This document shows positions 1,879 to 51,508 of a stretch of 64,000 bases of DNA, in pieces. The stretch is from Mycolicibacterium goodii. Lineage in GTDB: Bacteria > Actinomycetota > Actinomycetes > Mycobacteriales > Mycobacteriaceae. The translations under genes and the position numbers were made by a program. Below the pieces are notes generated by a model, which was not told the origin of the DNA, did no database searches, and was given only the letters and a program-made list of their open reading frames with translations. Each line of letters starts with the position of its first letter. The stretch's first letter is position 1. Where the stretch lies: NCBI RefSeq assembly GCF_022370755.2, contig NZ_CP092364.2, forward strand, positions 3,596,001 through 3,660,000, in the 5' to 3' direction.

Positions 1879-2122
1879 CTTCCCCACTTGGCGAACCTTG
1901 CCCCTTGGTAAGTCAATCTTCTCGCCAGGACAGGCACTTCGTGCACTACCGGCCGCATCACCCACCATTGCGCCAAACCGCAAGGTCAACGCCCGACGGC
2001 CCCGCTGCGGCGAGGTCAAGGCGTCCCTGAGACCGCCGGGCTGTCCACTCGATGCCGAGCGCCGATTCGCCGTCATCGACCGTGAGCTTCGCCAAGATCG
2101 AGAAGCGAGGGTGATGTGGCGG

Positions 2123-3067
2123 TCACGCCGCGGGAAACGACAGGTTCGTGAACTTCTCCGAGATCTCCCAGATACGTTGGGCCTCCTCGGTTCTGCGAAG
2201 ACGTGAGTAGAGTTTCTGTTCTCCGGGCGGTCCACCGAGATGTCCGGGACCGCTCGGGCCGTAGAACCCACCACGCCTTGCGTCGGGCGAGGTGGCGGCG
2301 TAGAGGGCCGGCAGTTGGGCGGTGTGCACGGTTCCGAAGAGGAAGCCACGGGACGACAACGTCCTGATCAAGCGCAGCTTCCAGTCGTCGTGTGCGCGCC
2401 CGGTATCCGGGCGGGCCGCGAGCAGGTTGGTGGGCGCCACACCCGGATGGGACAGGTTGCTCGTGATGCCCCACCCCTGGGCCTCACTGCGCCGGTCCAG
2501 TTCAAGGCCGAAGAGTCCGAATGCGATCTTCGACTGGCTGTAGGCCTTCGCGCCGTCGTATGAACGCTCCCAGTTCAGGTCGTCCCAGTTGATCGCATGC
2601 TGATTCGCCGCGATGCTGACCTGTGAGGTCACCCGCGCGCCACCGGCACGCAGCAGGGGCAGCAGATGGGCCACGAGCGCGAAGTGGCCGAGGTGGTTGG
2701 TGCCGAACTGCAACTCGAACCCGTCGATGGTCGCCTGCCGCTCGGGCGGCGTCATCACACCGGCGTTGTTGATGAGCACGTGAATCGGCTGCCCCTCTTC
2801 AAGGAGGGTCCTGCCCAGGGCGGCAACAGAGGCCAGAGACGACAGGTCGAGTTCGCGTAGCGACACTCGCGCAAGGGGGTTCCTCTCACGGATCACGGCG
2901 AGCGACGCCTCCCCCTTGGCCTCATTACGTACGGGCAGGATCACGTCAGCGCCCGCCGCGGCGAGCCTCGCGGCGATGCCGAGCCCGATGCCGTCGCTGG
3001 CACCGGTGACGACGGCGCGTCTGCCCGACAGATCGGGCACGGTGACGTCGATGGGTTTACGTGGCAT
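2123..3067 (-). CDS. Short-chain dehydrogenase/reductase (retinol dehydrogenase-like)
   Basis: A 314-aa SDR with the NAD(P) Gly motif TGASDGIG at residues 21-28, NNAG at 100-103, a catalytic Ser around 151 and the YxxxK pair Tyr176/Lys180 in AYSQSK. The long loop after NNAG and the C-terminal extension place it with the 300-residue retinol-dehydrogenase/protochlorophyllide-reductase-like SDRs, so it should oxidise or reduce an alcohol/ketone with NADP(H). The ATG at 3067 follows GAGGAG. It is divergent from an MmyB-like regulator that probably controls it. Confidence 0.88.
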
Positions 3068-3173
3068 GTGTGCTCCTCGGTGGTCTCACTGCGTCTCACC
3101 CTCGTCCACGGTGGCCCAGTCATTCAGTGCCGGTCTATCCACTGACCGCTGATCCCAGGAAAACCGGTGAAGG

Positions 3174-3206
3174 GTGGATCGGCAGTCCGTGGATCGGCGG
3201 ATCCAC
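3174..3206. promoter_or_regulatory. Candidate operator between the SDR and its divergent regulator
   Basis: GTGGATC (3189-3195), a 4-nt spacer, then GATCCAC (3200-3206) form a perfect 7-bp inverted repeat, and a third GTGGATC copy lies at 3174-3180. The repeats sit just upstream of the ribosome site of the helix-turn-helix gene and in the only gap between the two divergent genes, which fits an autoregulatory operator. Confidence 0.45.
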
Positions 3207-3243
3207 AGGCGGTAAGAATGGGCTCCTGAAGGAGGTTCACTCG

Positions 3244-4083
3244 GTGATAGATCGGACCGGCCTCGCGGATTTCCTCCGGCACCGCAGAGAGTCGTTGCAG
3301 CCTGAGGACGTCGGCCTGCCACGCGGGCGACGTCGCAGGACCAACGGATTACGTCGCGAAGAAGTGGCCGCCCTGTGCCACATGTCGACCGACTACTACT
3401 CACGCCTGGAGCGAGGGCACGGCCCCAAGCCGTCGGAGCAGATGATCGCGTCCATGGCGCAGGGGCTGCACCTGTCCCTCGATGAGCGCGATCACCTGTT
3501 CCGGCTCGCCGGCTATTCACCGCCATCCCGCGGCACCGACAGCGAACACATCAGCCCCGGCATGTTACGGATCTTCGACCGCCTCGACGACACGCCCGCC
3601 GAGATCGTCACCGAACTCGGCGAGACACTGCGGCAGACCCCACTGTCCGTGGCGCTGACCGGTGACTCGACGGGCCTTCGCGGCCCGGCCCGCAGCATCG
3701 GTTATCGGTGGTTCACCGATCCGGAAACGCGCCGGCTCTACGCCCCCGAGGAGCACGACTTCCTGACACGGATGTTCGTGTCGAACCTGCGCGCGCTGGT
3801 GACGTTGCGCGGTCCCGGATCCCGCGCCGCGCACTACGCAGATCTATTGCTGTCGGAGAGCGACGAGTTCCGGCGGGTCTGGGAAGATCACGAGATCGGC
3901 CTGCGGCCCCGTGAGGTGAAGCACTTCGTTCACCCTGAGCTGGGCACCCTCGAACTGCACTGCCAGACCCTGCTCGATCCCGAACAGTCGCACCTTCTGC
4001 TGGTCTACACCGCGGTCCCCGGCAGCGAGAGCCACGAGAAGCTGCAGTTGCTCTCGGTCATCGGCGCGCAGGCCCTACGCTGA
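3244..4083 (+). CDS. Helix-turn-helix transcriptional regulator, MmyB-like
   Basis: A 279-aa regulator with an N-terminal Xre-type helix-turn-helix at about residues 36-62 (TNGLRREEVAALCHMSTDYY) and a C-terminal MmyB-type ligand-binding, PAS-like domain. The motif family (HRRESLQPEDVGLP) is typical of actinobacterial MmyB-like proteins, which usually control a neighbouring SDR gene. I start it at the GTG at 3244 because GGAGG at 3231-3235 is 8 nt upstream; the open frame continues 61 codons further but that text is unlike the family. It probably represses the divergent SDR. Confidence 0.85.
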   Translation: MIDRTGLADFLRHRRESLQPEDVGLPRGRRRRTNGLRREEVAALCHMSTDYYSRLERGHGPKPSEQMIASMAQGLHLSLDERDHLFRLAGYSPPSRGTDSEHISPGMLRIFDRLDDTPAEIVTELGETLRQTPLSVALTGDSTGLRGPARSIGYRWFTDPETRRLYAPEEHDFLTRMFVSNLRALVTLRGPGSRAAHYADLLLSESDEFRRVWEDHEIGLRPREVKHFVHPELGTLELHCQTLLDPEQSHLLLVYTAVPGSESHEKLQLLSVIGAQALR

Positions 4084-45655: not shown

Positions 45656-48600
45656 TCACAACAGGCCGAGCTTCTGCAGATCGGTGACGTACTTGACGAT
45701 GATCGGTGCAGTCACATGCGGAATCTCGGAAACATTCGGGTACGCACCGATCTTCGCGCGACGCACCGCCGCCCGGAACCGATGCGTTGGCGCGAGTGAC
45801 CCGCGGATCGGCTTCTCGGGGCGCTGATAGTTGTGCAGCAGCGGCAGCAGCGACGCCTGGCGTTGCGTGTCCGGCAGCGCGTGCAACGCCGTGTCGAAAC
45901 GCCGCAGCCATTCGGCGTAGTCGGGAATGCGCTTGATCGGGTACCCCGCTTCGTCGATCCAGTCGACGAACTCGTCCAGACCGATGCCATCGTCATGCGG
46001 ATTCATCACATGATAGGTCGAAAACCCGTGCGTTGCAGTCGCGCCCAGGGTGGTGATGGCCTCGGCGATGAACCCGACCGGCAGCCCGTCGTAGTGTGCG
46101 CGCTGCCGGTTCCCGTTCGCGTCGAGTTCGTAGAACGACCCGGGTGCGATACCGGTGGCGACGAGGCTCAATATCAGCCTGGTGAACATGTCGGGGACAT
46201 TCAGCTGTCCCGCCCATGTGGTGTCGGCCAGGATCATGTCGCAACGGAACACCGTGACCGGCAACCCGCACCGGTCGTGGGCCTCGCGCAGCAGCACCTC
46301 GCCGGCCCACTTGCTGTTGCCGTACCCGTTGGCGTAGCTGTCGTCGATGGCGCGGACACCGCTGACGATCCGGATGTCGGCGTCCTCGGTGAACATCGAC
46401 GGATCGATCTGATCACCGACGCCGATCGTCGACACATACGTGTAGGGCTTCAGTTTCGACGTCAGCGCGAGGCGGATCAGTTCGGCCGTGCCCACGACGT
46501 TGGGGCCGAACAACTCGCTGTACGGCAGCACATGGTTGACCAACGCCGCAGGGTCGACGATGACGTCGACGGTGTCGGCGAGTCGTCGCCAGGTGGCGCA
46601 ATCCAACCCGAGCTGGGCCTCGCCCTTGTCCCCCGCGATGACCTGCAGATGCCGGTCGGCGAGATCGAGGTAATGGTGCAGCAGCCGGGGGTCCCCGCTG
46701 TCGAAGGTACGGTCCAATCGCTGCCGGGCCGATGCGTCGTCCCTGGCACGCACCAGGCAGATCACGGTGCCGCCGACCCGGCTCATCCGCTCCAGCCACT
46801 GCAGCGCCAGGTAACGCCCGAGGAAGCCCGTCGCACCCGTCAGCAACACGGTGCGCACGTCTGAGCTTGGCAATGCCCTTGTGGTGGTGAGGGTTTCGCC
46901 GTCGAGGAACTTCTCGAGCGTGAGGTCGGCGGCCCGCACTTCGGTGGCACCCGGGCCGTGTACCGACGCGAACGACGGACGGACCGCACCTGGCCGACGA
47001 TGCGCCTCGACGTAATCCGCGATGGATCGCAGGTCCCCGGACGGGCTGACGATCACCCCCACCGGTACCTCGACACCGAAAATCTCCCGCAGCAGATTCC
47101 CGAACGTCAATGCCGACAGGGAATCCCCACCCAGATCGGTGAAGTGGTCCTCAGGCAGTACATCGTCGGTCGTGGGGCCGAGGAACGCGCCCGCGGCCCG
47201 GCAGACCGTCTCCACCACCGGGCGATCGGCACCGCCGCGCCGCAACGCCTCCAGTTCGTTGGCCTGGTTGGCCTCCAGTTCGGCGTAGAGCTCCTCGAGA
47301 CGGACACCGTAGTGCGCCTTGAGGTTCGGTCGAGCCAGCTTACGGATGCCGGTCAGCAGGCCGTTCTCAAGAGTGAACGGCGTGGTTTCCACGATGAAGT
47401 CGCGTGGGATCTCATAGGACTGCAGCCCCACGGCTTTGGCGATGTCCTGCAGCGACGCGCTGATCGCGGCCTTCAACGCGGCCGGGTCCGTGCCGCTGTG
47501 CGCCAACGCGTGAGCGGTGGGGACGATGACCGCGAGCAGGTAGGCGCGGGCACTGTTGCCGTAGATGTAGATCTGGCGGATCAGCGGGCTGCTGCCGAAC
47601 ACCGCCTCGAGCTTGGACACCGTGACGAATTCACCCTGTGACAGTTTGAGCACATTGTTGCGGCGATCCAGGTACACCAACTGATCACGGCCGATCTCGG
47701 CGACCACGTCACCGGTGCGGTAGAAGCCTTCGGCGTCGAACACCTCGGCGGTGACCTCCGGGCGCTTGTAGTAACCCGGGAACATGTCGCGGGTCTTGAC
47801 CAGCAGCTCACCTCGCGGATGCGGTTGGTCGGTGTGGAAATACCCCAGATCGGGCACATCGGCCAGCTTGTAGTCGATGACCGCCGGACGTCGTACGGTA
47901 CCGTCGACCAAGACCATCCCGGCCTCCGTCGAACCGTAACCCTCGATGAGATGCAGATCGAGGAGCTCTTCGACGAACGCCTTGTTCTCCGCGGAGATCG
48001 GGGCCGAGCCCGTCATCGCAAGCACGTACCGACCTCCCAGCACACGCTGGGCCAATTCGGCCATGACCTCGGCTTCGACAGCGCTGCTGTCATTGCGCTC
48101 CGCCGCCCGGCGCCGCACCTCGCTCTGGAAGGTTCCGAACAGCATGTCCCAGACCCGCGGCACGAAGTTCAGCTCGGTGGGCCGCACGAGCGCAAGGTCC
48201 TCGTACAACGTCGAAAGGTCGCTGCGGGCCGTGAAATAGGCAGTGCCGCCGTGTCCCAGCGTTCCGTAGAGGATGCCGCGCCCCATCACGTGGCTCATCG
48301 GCATGAAGTTCAGCGTGATGGACGGCTCGGCCGTCGAGCCGCCCCAGTTCCAGCGCGATCGACGCCAGAAGTTCGCCACCAGACGTTCGGGGTACATCGC
48401 CCCTTTCGGTGCGCCCGTGCTGCCCGAGGTGTAGATGAGCAGCCGCAGTGGATCCTCTTCGTCGACGACGGGATACGGCTCCTCTGATGCCGATCGCCCT
48501 CGTTCGAGCAGATCGGCCAGGGACTCGACGACCACCGGGGCACCCGCATCGGCCAGCCGTCGACGCGCACGCTGCAGTGCGTCGCGCTGGTCGTCCACCG

Positions 48601-49174
48601 CGGGGCGGTGATCGAAGACGACGAGACTGGTCGGCGTGTGCCCGGTGAGCACCAGCTCGACGGCGGTGTCCAGATCGCCGATGCTCGACGCGAACACACG
48701 GGGTTCGGTTTCGGCGACGATGGGGCGGAGCTGGCTGACCGGCGCGCTTGTCTGCAGCGGGACACCCACCGCGCCGAGGGACATCGTCGCCATGTCGATG
48801 ACTGCGTAATCGGCACTGGCGAAGCCCAATACGCACACCCGATCGCCGGGCCGCACGTCCGACAGTGCGCGGGTCACCGCGGCAACCCGCCGGGACAATT
48901 CGCGATAGGTGATGGTGTCGAACCGCGGCAGCAGTTCGGCGGTCGTCCGACCGGTCACCGGGTCCTCGACCAACTCGACCGCCCGCTCCCCGATCGCGGG
49001 CCGATCGGCGTAAGCGTCCAGGACGGTGCCGATGATCTGGTGCAGTCGCATCTGCGGTTGCTCGATGGCTGCGGTCACCGCGTCGATGGGCCGGGCATCG
49101 GCGAATTGCGTGTCGATGGCGTACAGCTCGGCAATGCGGTGTGCGAGCCGTTCCTGGCGGGGGTCGATGGACAT
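45656..49174 (-). CDS. car: Carboxylic acid reductase (CAR)
   Basis: A 1172-aa three-part enzyme that reduces carboxylic acids to aldehydes with ATP and NADPH. The adenylation domain (about 1-650) has [19 protein letters not shown] near residue 248; the carrier domain has the phosphopantetheine Ser in [10 protein letters not shown] near 684; the reductase domain (about 760-1172) has [13 protein letters not shown] near 776 and [13 protein letters not shown] near 946. Length and order are those of M. smegmatis and Nocardia CARs, which need a phosphopantetheinyl transferase. The true substrate is unknown. ATG start; an inverted repeat lies upstream. Confidence 0.95.
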
Positions 49175-49430: not shown

Positions 49431-49595
49431 TCAGTGTGGCTGTTGGGATTGCGCGTGCGCATCGCGTTTGTGGCGGCAGATGACGCCCGCGGCGGCCACC
49501 GCGGCCGGGTCGAACCCGTCCGGTAACGGACCGTCGGCCACCAACGCCTTGACAAGAGCCTCCTGGCGGCGGGCCAATTCGTCGCGTTCCGTCAT
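49431..49595 (-). CDS. Small protein, truncated partner of the DUF692 enzyme
   Basis: A 54-aa ORF beginning MTERDELARRQEALVKALVA followed by DGPLPDGFDPAAV and ending CRHKRDAHAQSQQPH. Its ATG overlaps the DUF692 stop (ATGA), so it is translationally coupled. The first 45 residues resemble the start of the small SCO6045-like proteins found next to actinobacterial DUF692 genes, which normally run to 120-200 aa; here the frame ends after the first Arg/Lys-rich helix. It may be a short functional partner or a truncated one. Confidence 0.55.
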   Translation of the reverse strand: MTERDELARRQEALVKALVADGPLPDGFDPAAVAAAGVICRHKRDAHAQSQQPH

Positions 49596-50446
49596 GCCCA
49601 TACCTCCCGTGCCCGCTGGGTGATCGGCGCCGCGCCGGCGGCGTCGGCGATCGCGTCCAGTTCATCGAAGAGTTCGGCGGCAGGCGGGAAATGGCCGTCG
49701 CGCTCGAGCATGAAAGGCGTGTCGACCCGTTCCCGCAGCGCCGTCACCAGCTCCAGCACCTGCGGTGGGGTCGGTGCGGCGTGGGTGTCGTGGTAGAAGT
49801 TCTCACCCTCTCGGCCTCCTGCGACATGGCTGTACGCCACGTGTTCCACCGGGAGGCGCGCGAGTTCCCGCAACGGGTCGCGGCCGCGGTTGCGGGCGTT
49901 GGCGTACACGTTGGCCACGTCGAGTACCAGCAGAACTCCGGTGCGGTCCACGAGTTCGGTGAGGAACTCCGATTCGGTGAGATCGGACTCCGGCCACTCC
50001 ACGAACGACGCGATATTCTCCACCGCCAGCGGGGTTTGCAGCTGTTCTCGCGTGCGGTGAATGTTGGCCGTCAACACATCGATCGCCGCGCGGGTCCGCG
50101 GGACCGGTAGCAGATGGCCTGCCTCGATTCCGCCTGCCCTGACGAACGCGATGTGTTCACTGACCAGGGGCGAACGCAGTGCCTGCGCGCAGGCGGCCAG
50201 CCGCCGTATTCGCTTGGGTTGCACCGGTTCCACGCCGCCGAGCGACAGCGCGACACCGTGCGGGACCACCGGGACGCCCCGTGCCACCAGATCGACCAGT
50301 GCTGCATCCGGCCGGGCGCGACGGCGACGGATCGGCACCGACTCGGCGATCACCTCGCAGAATCCCGGCCGTAGATCCGCGATCACGCCGGCGATCTCGC
50401 GTCGCCAACCGATTCCGACGTCACCGAGTGCGGGCACATTCCTCAT
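49592..50446 (-). CDS. DUF692 (MNIO) family enzyme, MbnB/TglH-like
   Basis: A 284-aa TIM-barrel protein of the multinuclear non-heme iron oxidase family. Likely metal ligands are seen in VPHGVALSLGG, SEHIAF, AVENIAS, LLVLDVANVYANARN, YSHVAGG, HDTHAAP and LERDGHFPP. Characterised members modify Cys or C-terminal residues of ribosomal peptides, usually with a partner protein. It starts at ATG 50446, overlapping the stop of the gene for a membrane protein with a Cys/Gly-rich tail, which is a possible substrate. A longer open frame upstream runs through that gene and is not used. Confidence 0.88.
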   Translation of the reverse strand: MRNVPALGDVGIGWRREIAGVIADLRPGFCEVIAESVPIRRRRARPDAALVDLVARGVPVVPHGVALSLGGVEPVQPKRIRRLAACAQALRSPLVSEHIAFVRAGGIEAGHLLPVPRTRAAIDVLTANIHRTREQLQTPLAVENIASFVEWPESDLTESEFLTELVDRTGVLLVLDVANVYANARNRGRDPLRELARLPVEHVAYSHVAGGREGENFYHDTHAAPTPPQVLELVTALRERVDTPFMLERDGHFPPAAELFDELDAIADAAGAAPITQRAREVWA

Positions 50447-51360
50447 CCCCCGCACCCTCCGCCGCCACCGCCGCATCCCCCGCAACTGCTGCAACCGGAT
50501 CCACCGTCGCCGCCCCCGCAGGACGCTCCGCAGCCACCCCCACCGTCGGCGCCACCGGCGACGCCGGGCGCCTGCACCGCGTCGGCGTAGCTGCCATCCA
50601 CCGCCCACAGTGCGCCGGCACCGAACAGGGCGACCGACAACGCGACCGCGGACGGTCCGTAGGTCTCGAAGGCCGGGCTCTTCGCCGGATGGAGATAGGC
50701 CATTCGCTTCCGCTCCCCGGCCAGCAACCGACGCCCGGCGGGGGTCAGCCGTTTCACCTGCAGCAGCCACGGAAGCACGAACACGCCGTAGAGGACCGTG
50801 GCGAACACCACGACCATGAACGTGACCGTGAGGTCGGGATCATCGGCCAATCGGGTCACCAGGTGAGTGCCGTAACCGACACCGAGCAGCATGACCACGA
50901 TGGACGGCGCCACGCCCCAACGTATCCGCGTGCGCTGTTGGCGGGTCATCACCAGTCCGCGCTCGCCCAGTTGCTCCTCCAGGGCGGCGAGGTCGTCCTT
51001 GGACGCCCGACACAGGCCCGCAACGGTGTGGCGCGGATCGCCGGTCACTCGTCGCAGTACCTGTCCGGTGAAGCCATCGATGTCCGTATCGCGCACACCG
51101 TGGTCGACCTTCCGCGAGGACGTGACCCGGCCGGTGGCGCGCAGGCTCGCGAGGGCGGTGACCACCGGGGCGACATCGGATCGTAGGAAGGCCAGCTCGG
51201 TCGCGCTGATCTGCTCGGTCGTCGCGGGTTTGCGTGGCGTCATGACGATCCGCCAGATCACCGCAAAGGTCGCTGCCAGGGCCAACGCAACCAGGTACCG
51301 GTTTCCCCATTCGGCCACCGCCCGGCCGTAGAACTCGAAGAAGCTCTCATCAGTCGCCAT
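50443..51360 (-). CDS. TIGR04222-type membrane protein with a Cys/Gly-rich C-terminal tail
   Basis: A 305-aa protein with a membrane helix near residues 18-36, a soluble segment containing repeated Arg/Asp-rich helices, two helices at about 150-205, another near 245-262, and a tail from about residue 268 that is almost only Gly with six Cys (for example GCGASCGGGDGGSGCSSCGG). This is the TIGR04222 class, whose C-termini vary but are Gly/Cys-rich. It is coupled to the DUF692 enzyme by ATGA overlap. ATG 51360 is preceded by GGGAGG at the right distance; an upstream GTG (51366) is less likely. Confidence 0.8.
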   Translation of the reverse strand: MATDESFFEFYGRAVAEWGNRYLVALALAATFAVIWRIVMTPRKPATTEQISATELAFLRSDVAPVVTALASLRATGRVTSSRKVDHGVRDTDIDGFTGQVLRRVTGDPRHTVAGLCRASKDDLAALEEQLGERGLVMTRQQRTRIRWGVAPSIVVMLLGVGYGTHLVTRLADDPDLTVTFMVVVFATVLYGVFVLPWLLQVKRLTPAGRRLLAGERKRMAYLHPAKSPAFETYGPSAVALSVALFGAGALWAVDGSYADAVQAPGVAGGADGGGGCGASCGGGDGGSGCSSCGGCGGGGGGCGG

Positions 51361-51508
51361 CGTCACCTCCCTTTCAGATGCCCCAGCATGGCGGGCAGCT
51401 GTTGTTACCGATCACAACTTTCTGGTCGAGCCAGAGTGCATCGGCAAAGACAGCGATCTTTGAGGAAGCTTTGGCGTCTGTGTGAGGAAACTGGCGCGGA
51501 CTGCGTTG

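Follow-up and report, generated by a model that had tools for sequence, protein, structure and literature searches.

MNIO (DUF692) enzymes are a rapidly expanding source of novel peptide chemistry. The closest described systems are the TIGR04222-MNIO clusters of Antoine et al. (July 2025; PMC12452194), who published both the pairing of TIGR04222 proteins with MNIO enzymes and the hypothesis that the protein tail is the enzyme's substrate. Their account describes more than 3,500 TIGR04222 proteins with frequent, but not constant, MNIO neighbors, and with a Cys-rich tail that was predicted to lie outside and was proposed as the MNIO target. The C-proximal Cys are missing in over a quarter of TIGR04222 proteins, and a third of TIGR04222 genomes have no MNIO; partners of PME-type 2 occur in at least 10% of the clusters, and many clusters have no apparent partner (PMC12452194). 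For the oxazolin enzyme HvfB, the partner HvfC is required to attain the active, mixed-valent Fe(II)/Fe(III) state, its role in substrate binding is inferred, and a direct HvfB-HvfC fusion is active (PMC13419390).

The window analyzed here is a stretch of 64,000 nucleotides from Mycolicibacterium goodii, whose genome is a single contig of 6.7 Mb. Three consecutive genes, all clean open reading frames, lie on the minus strand from 51360 to 49431 and encode, in order, a TIGR04222 membrane protein, an MNIO enzyme, and a small protein resembling a minimal MNIO partner. Neighboring genes overlap by the four bases ATGA (50443 to 50446 and 49592 to 49595), as a sequence-only reading of this DNA had reported and as the ORF positions and translations bear out. 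A purine-rich GGGAGG (51366..51371, minus strand), recognized by eye, resembles a ribosome-binding site directly 5' of the ATG at 51360; a scan for promoters and terminators at the locus found none. The sequence-only reading knew of no worked-out function for the pairing; its core idea was in fact already known because it had been published (PMC12452194). Its placement of the third ORF was correct, but it said little about this gene and its account was incomplete, since the cassette includes a reduced partner-like protein.

The closest named relatives of the window MNIO come from Mycobacterium and Mycolicibacterium species. Within a plasmid collection, this MNIO matched 355 records, 354 of them at <60% identity, and the TIGR04222 protein matched a single record, a Tsukamurella plasmid carrying all three genes. 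One Tsukamurella tyrosinosolvens plasmid record (L343) holds a 643-aa TIGR04222 gene with two matching places (2055 to 3986), and its small third gene is annotated as a hypothetical protein. On the far side of the window cassette, 256 bases past the third gene, starts a 1,172-aa gene (45656 to 49174) that looks like a carboxylic acid reductase by eye; nine Nocardia loci contain a protein like it toward their far edge, with no clustering with the other loci compared.

The first gene (50443..51360, minus strand) encodes a 305-aa protein, the proposed substrate, which we assign to the TIGR04222 domain-containing membrane proteins based on its NCBIfam score (122 bits; cutoff, 43) and its Gly/Cys tail. 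It contains four hydrophobic segments (residues 23 to 41, 150 to 168, 178 to 196, and 236 to 254). The domain between the first two (residues 42 to 149; 50914..51237, minus strand) is predicted to be cytoplasmic, holds 18 K+R, and is mostly helical in the AlphaFold model (mean pLDDT, 84.6); that it is a winged helix or an RRE in nature is a guess. A fold search with the whole model returned uninformative matches to long helices only, and a PDB sequence search with the TIGR04222 alignment returned nothing meaningful. The fourth segment, identified by hydropathy (50599..50655, minus strand), directly precedes the tail, which is predicted to lie outside because there are eight K+R in the loop before this segment and none after it. 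Disordered in the AlphaFold model, the 38-residue tail (residues 268 to 305; 50446..50559, minus strand) comprises 23 Gly, 6 Cys, 4 Ser, 3 Ala, and 2 Asp and terminates in Cys-Gly-Gly. The translation thus contains the six Cys that had been noticed earlier, and the description of the stretch as Gly-only was wrong.

The tail is no chance feature, because its Cys and its Cys-Gly-Gly end recur across relatives. That exact end was found in 73 of 76 tails from named relatives and in 104 of 117 from a survey of the order; among the best 120 database relatives listed, 118 have at least two Cys in their last 40 residues and 105 end in Cys-Gly-Gly. Gly follows Cys in 425 of 504 cases in the order set and in 341 of 373 in the named set. 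The number of tail Cys ranges from 2 to 8, and variation is lowest in the last three residues.

The predicted topology is also widely shared: a helix-like stretch (mean hydropathy of ≥1.0) precedes the tail in 111 of the 117 order proteins, and in 115 of them K/R are more numerous before the last helix than after it. This helix is often weakly hydrophobic, because it is detected in 49 of the 117 at a stricter threshold of 1.5 over 19 residues. An outside tail is not universal, because six of the 117 proteins have no clear last hydrophobic helix before their Cys-Gly tails (G417, G464, G592, G612, G438 [4218303], and G717 [6921583]); judged from sequence, these tails could be cytosolic. Variant arrangements were also observed. 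In Mycolicibacterium houstonense (L147, 3239 to 4612), TIGR04222 and MNIO form one open frame with no Cys tail, which is either a deletion or a contig error, and at six loci (L127, L129, L140, L149, L158, and L181) a tandem pair of TIGR04222 proteins precedes a single MNIO.

The second gene (49592..50446, minus strand) encodes a 284-aa enzyme that belongs to the MNIO superfamily based on its PF05114 score (260.6 bits; cutoff, 25) and its active-site columns. Positions H63, H98, E143, D176, N179, H207, D220, H222, and E248 are invariant over 15 aligned rows, which agrees with the earlier description of a DUF692 enzyme with an intact active site. Some of these invariant residues are expected to bind iron. 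The named site-3 residues of HvfB are N175, D242, and H244 (PMC13419390). The nearest NCBIfam model is BufB, with ApyH, ChrH, and MbnB scoring lower; at 186.1 bits, the window enzyme falls below the cutoff of 310 for the BufB equivalog (NF050167). No export signal was seen by eye. Divergent MNIOs were found at two other loci: that of L225 (G550) matches in two frames and adjoins a TIGR04222 protein with a single-Cys Gly tail, and that of L071 (G050, from the window's genus) is followed by a protein that the partner model matches at an E value of 1e-7, and the genes called in the 12 kb include none related to the window TIGR04222 protein.

The third gene (49431..49595, minus strand) encodes the minimal partner-like protein, of 54 aa. 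At 77 of 77 named loci, the MNIO is followed by a homologue, because of which we do not consider the gene filler, and the same holds for 84 of 84 fetched order loci; the gene is present in G049 and G021, where gene calling had missed it. The conserved 37-residue core (residues 11 to 47; 49455..49565, minus strand) is under strong purifying selection, with a dN/dS of 0.058 (mean dN, 0.054; dS, 0.93) over 37 codons in 18 mycobacterial sequences, including that of the window, and variable sites number 12 at first, 6 at second, and 36 at third codon positions. The set comprises 18 of 19 sequences, L113 having been left out for QQ where the pattern required QE. We rejected the possibility that the third gene is noise or a recently broken gene, given a homologue in 18 of 18 other mycobacterial loci together with this low dN/dS.

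The mycobacterial and Tsukamurella forms measure 54 to 74 residues, about one helical hairpin, and have no recognition domain: they retain the first helix, a GPVPxGFDP loop, and part of the second helix and then end. The window protein aligns to only the first two helices of a 148-aa relative, and three database relatives of 51 to 52 aa end at about the same point. For a full-length relative, the best of 350 aligned chains were one each in TglHI (8hi7) and MbnABC (7dz9), with weak Z scores of 4.8 and 4.3. With its 54 residues, which align to no more than those two helices, the window protein does not group with RRE-containing partners. It does not show the DUF2063 signature of PME-type 1 partners, and searches with profiles that did not include PF26136 returned no Pfam family up to an E value of 10 for this protein, for the short forms L112 and P0012, or for four longer homologues; a PDB sequence search with the partner alignment returned nothing meaningful. 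The family itself carries the Pfam number PF26136, and two source labels read “SCO6045-like C-terminal d...”; SCO6045 is a line in a transcript table for the HbpS-SenS-SenR redox system (PMC4991794). The MNIO and partner are naturally fused, in the same order as the engineered HvfB-HvfC, in Frankia loci and in Streptomyces-type loci (group f4; this label and any family name for groups f2 or f78 are guesses). By analogy with HvfC, the minimal form may keep the iron-state role alone. The small “adjamnio-V” proteins of PMC12452194 may be the same as this minimal partner.

We surveyed 397 genomes of the order, using the same draw for both families and accepting TIGR04222 matches at E values up to 1e-6. 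TIGR04222 was present in 195 genomes and MNIO in 161, with both in 153, TIGR04222 only in 42, MNIO only in 8, and neither in 194. Among the 150 TIGR04222 matches listed, 117 have a listed MNIO within 5 kb, always downstream on the same strand, and four more adjacent loci, where the MNIO lies in the fetched locus (G358, G376, G550, and G570), bring the total to 121. Of these 121, all with an MNIO no more than about 5 kb away, 120 have tails with at least two Cys, the exception being G550, with one Cys. The other 29 matches listed include 20 with no tail Cys, 7 with at least two, 1 with a single Cys (G574, close to a contig end), and 1 cut by a contig end (G439, where the tail is not covered). 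Nineteen of the 20 proteins without tail Cys belong to genus group f2 g5, 18 of them from genomes with another TIGR04222 copy, and the remaining one is from G639, of the same genus as the window. All seven listed Cys-tailed proteins distant from an MNIO come from genomes that hold an MNIO at another locus. Asked how often Cys/Gly-tailed TIGR04222 proteins adjoin DUF692 genes, a check that the sequence-only reading had proposed, the survey gives 120 of the 127 listed proteins that carry two or more tail Cys, within about 5 kb. Frequent tails without the enzyme, which that reading would have counted against its idea, were not found in the order.

Genomes with TIGR04222 but no MNIO are mostly from family f78 (38 of 42), the other four being G433, G507, G639, and G710. 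The 13 f78 hits over the cutoff that we examined cover the first part of the profile only; two Cys in a Gly tail were seen in 2 of these 13 proteins, and MNIO was absent from each of the 38 f78 genomes that gave a TIGR04222 match. Another set, of 21 genomes and 23 proteins and again including G639, yielded at least two tail Cys in 18 proteins and none in 5, namely, those of G507 and G639, a tandem copy in G352, and the long, DUF2207-like, below-cutoff proteins of G710 and G433. G507 and G639, both of the window's genus, have TIGR04222 without tail Cys and no MNIO. Across the phylum, a draw of 296 genomes contained TIGR04222 over the cutoff in 15 and MNIO in 19, with both near each other in 14; the 15th TIGR04222 genome is represented by a contig-edge fragment.

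These raw counts overstate the number of independent events, because the tree shows few changes in either tail or MNIO. Using FastTree with 176 rows (in 17 of which a check of MNIO adjacency bore it out 17 times), we found that the tail trait and MNIO adjacency each change six times. In five supported independent pairs, MNIO differed in the same direction as the tail in 2.5, in the other direction in 0.0, and not at all in 2.5 on average (sign test, P = 0.25, a value that cannot reach 0.05 because there are so few independent pairs). G507 and G639 form their own lineage on the tree and do not represent a type like the window's that lost its MNIO recently. The Streptomyces-type loci that have both genes, which account for 8 of the 14 phylum-draw genomes, have a Cys tail in 2 (G160 and G339) and lack it in 6 (G179, G208, G227, G277, G329, and G348), and in these six the tail-less TIGR04222 protein adjoins an MNIO-partner fusion. 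Because the enzymes aligned from four of the six retain the invariant columns, the tail-less loci need another substrate. At the Streptomyces-type loci L060 to L063, L065, and L067, an MNIO-partner fusion lies beside a tail-less TIGR04222 protein; near five of these six is a 526- to 555-aa protein with 8 to 9 Cys, and the one that was scanned has a weak likeness to prolyl aminopeptidase.

We consider it fairly probable that substrate, enzyme, and activator form a self-contained, translationally coupled cassette in which the MNIO oxidizes the tail Cys of an anchored protein. The earlier proposal that the membrane protein tail is a likely MNIO substrate is supported by strong gene linkage and by the co-variation of Cys with MNIO in the order; it is not new, and the six tail-less Streptomyces-type loci count against it. 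Those loci, the two MNIO-free f78 proteins that keep two tail Cys, and the small number of independent changes on the tree would fit a different account, in which the MNIO modifies a nontail TIGR04222 residue or a different protein, with the Cys tail being a co-inherited thiol metal binder that stays unmodified. We regard this as unlikely, given that at least two tail Cys accompany a nearby MNIO in all but one of the listed proteins, that the two MNIO-free proteins of G507 and G639 have none, and that no other gene family is widely common near the cassette.

In the reading we favor, the TIGR04222 protein would enter the membrane with its last helix and Gly/Ser/Cys tail emerging last from the ribosome, because of which the tail could meet a cytosolic MNIO before export. 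Modification would precede membrane crossing, since the MNIO has no export signal by eye. The small partner would bind the MNIO and let its iron center attain the active state, and the enzyme would then oxidize tail Cys in G/S-Cys-Gly settings. The tail motif is like the EGKCG repeats that become 5-thiooxazoles (PMC13097082), and 5-thiooxazoles are the most likely product by analogy with the nearest characterized relatives. The modified tail would remain anchored as a flexible brush on the outer surface, either redox active or binding copper or another soft metal; metal binding is our best guess, by analogy with bufferins. Within about 4 kb at 78 loci compared, no other gene family is common to more than 17. 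No shared exporter or peptidase was thus seen there, and the end product is likely to be the membrane protein itself.

These same 78 loci argue against the membrane protein being a mere carrier whose modified tail is cleaved away to give a small, free RiPP: they have no protease or exporter family in common. Nor was a conserved cut site seen by eye ahead of the Gly run. Described MNIO substrates are mostly peptides (PMC12452194) and the tail is disordered in the AlphaFold model, and we nevertheless find this account improbable. Equally improbable is action on the C-terminal residues, by cleavage or remodeling at the Cys-Gly-Gly end, rather than on all Cys, an idea encouraged by the constancy of that end while Cys number varies and opposed by the nearness of the window enzyme to the BufB and HvfB models, which convert several Cys, and by some near relatives that end in Gly-Glu.

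A more tentative extension of the anchored-substrate reading is that the MNIO matures a membrane protein tail by using a partner reduced to a helical hairpin of ∼45 residues, and that clusters thought to be partnerless carry an overlooked microprotein. The two jobs of the partner would here be naturally split, with iron-center switching kept and substrate recognition lost, its place being taken by tethering at the membrane or by the cytosolic domain of the TIGR04222 protein itself. The partner may have shrunk to this hairpin because a tethered substrate makes a recognition domain needless. If the tail is modified, the reach of the MNIO family extends to integral membrane proteins, and does so in a large bacterial order with soil producers and opportunistic pathogens among its members. 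The reduced partner would be a ready system for asking how little partner is enough to switch on the iron center, a question raised recently by the HvfBC work (PMC13419390), and it would correct the picture of many TIGR04222-MNIO clusters without a partner gene. The shrunken partner-like helper appears to be novel and open to experimental test. Tail Cys in the presence and absence of MNIO were not contrasted in the part of PMC12452194 compared here, and our literature searches turned up neither this co-variation nor, most importantly, the conserved minimal partner.

The cassette shares features with several known systems. Weak sequence kinship and Gly-rich tails, for example, ones ending in GGGGSW, connect it to DUF2207-type membrane proteins, whose tails, unlike that of the window protein, showed no Cys. 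The MNIO-PME1 systems that make 5-thiooxazole metallophores (bufferins, oxazolins, and fontiphorin) have a related MNIO, BufB and HvfB being the best NCBIfam models, and share repeated Cys-Gly motifs and a partner gene after the MNIO. Their precursors are peptides, most with a Sec signal, whereas here the candidate substrate is the tail of a multihelix membrane protein, and the third gene has no DUF2063 signature and no room for an RRE. TglHI and MbnABC each contain one chain matched by the full-length relative of the third gene, at the weak Z scores given above, and compared with those partners the window protein retains the first helical hairpin only. The TIGR04222-MNIO clusters of PMC12452194, as far as they are described in the part compared, agree with the present cassette in precursor family, enzyme family, gene order, and the tail proposed as substrate. 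The loci analyzed here differ from them in that all 77 named and all 84 fetched order loci have a partner homologue and in that, among mycobacteria and Tsukamurella, this partner has shrunk to a core of some 45 residues.
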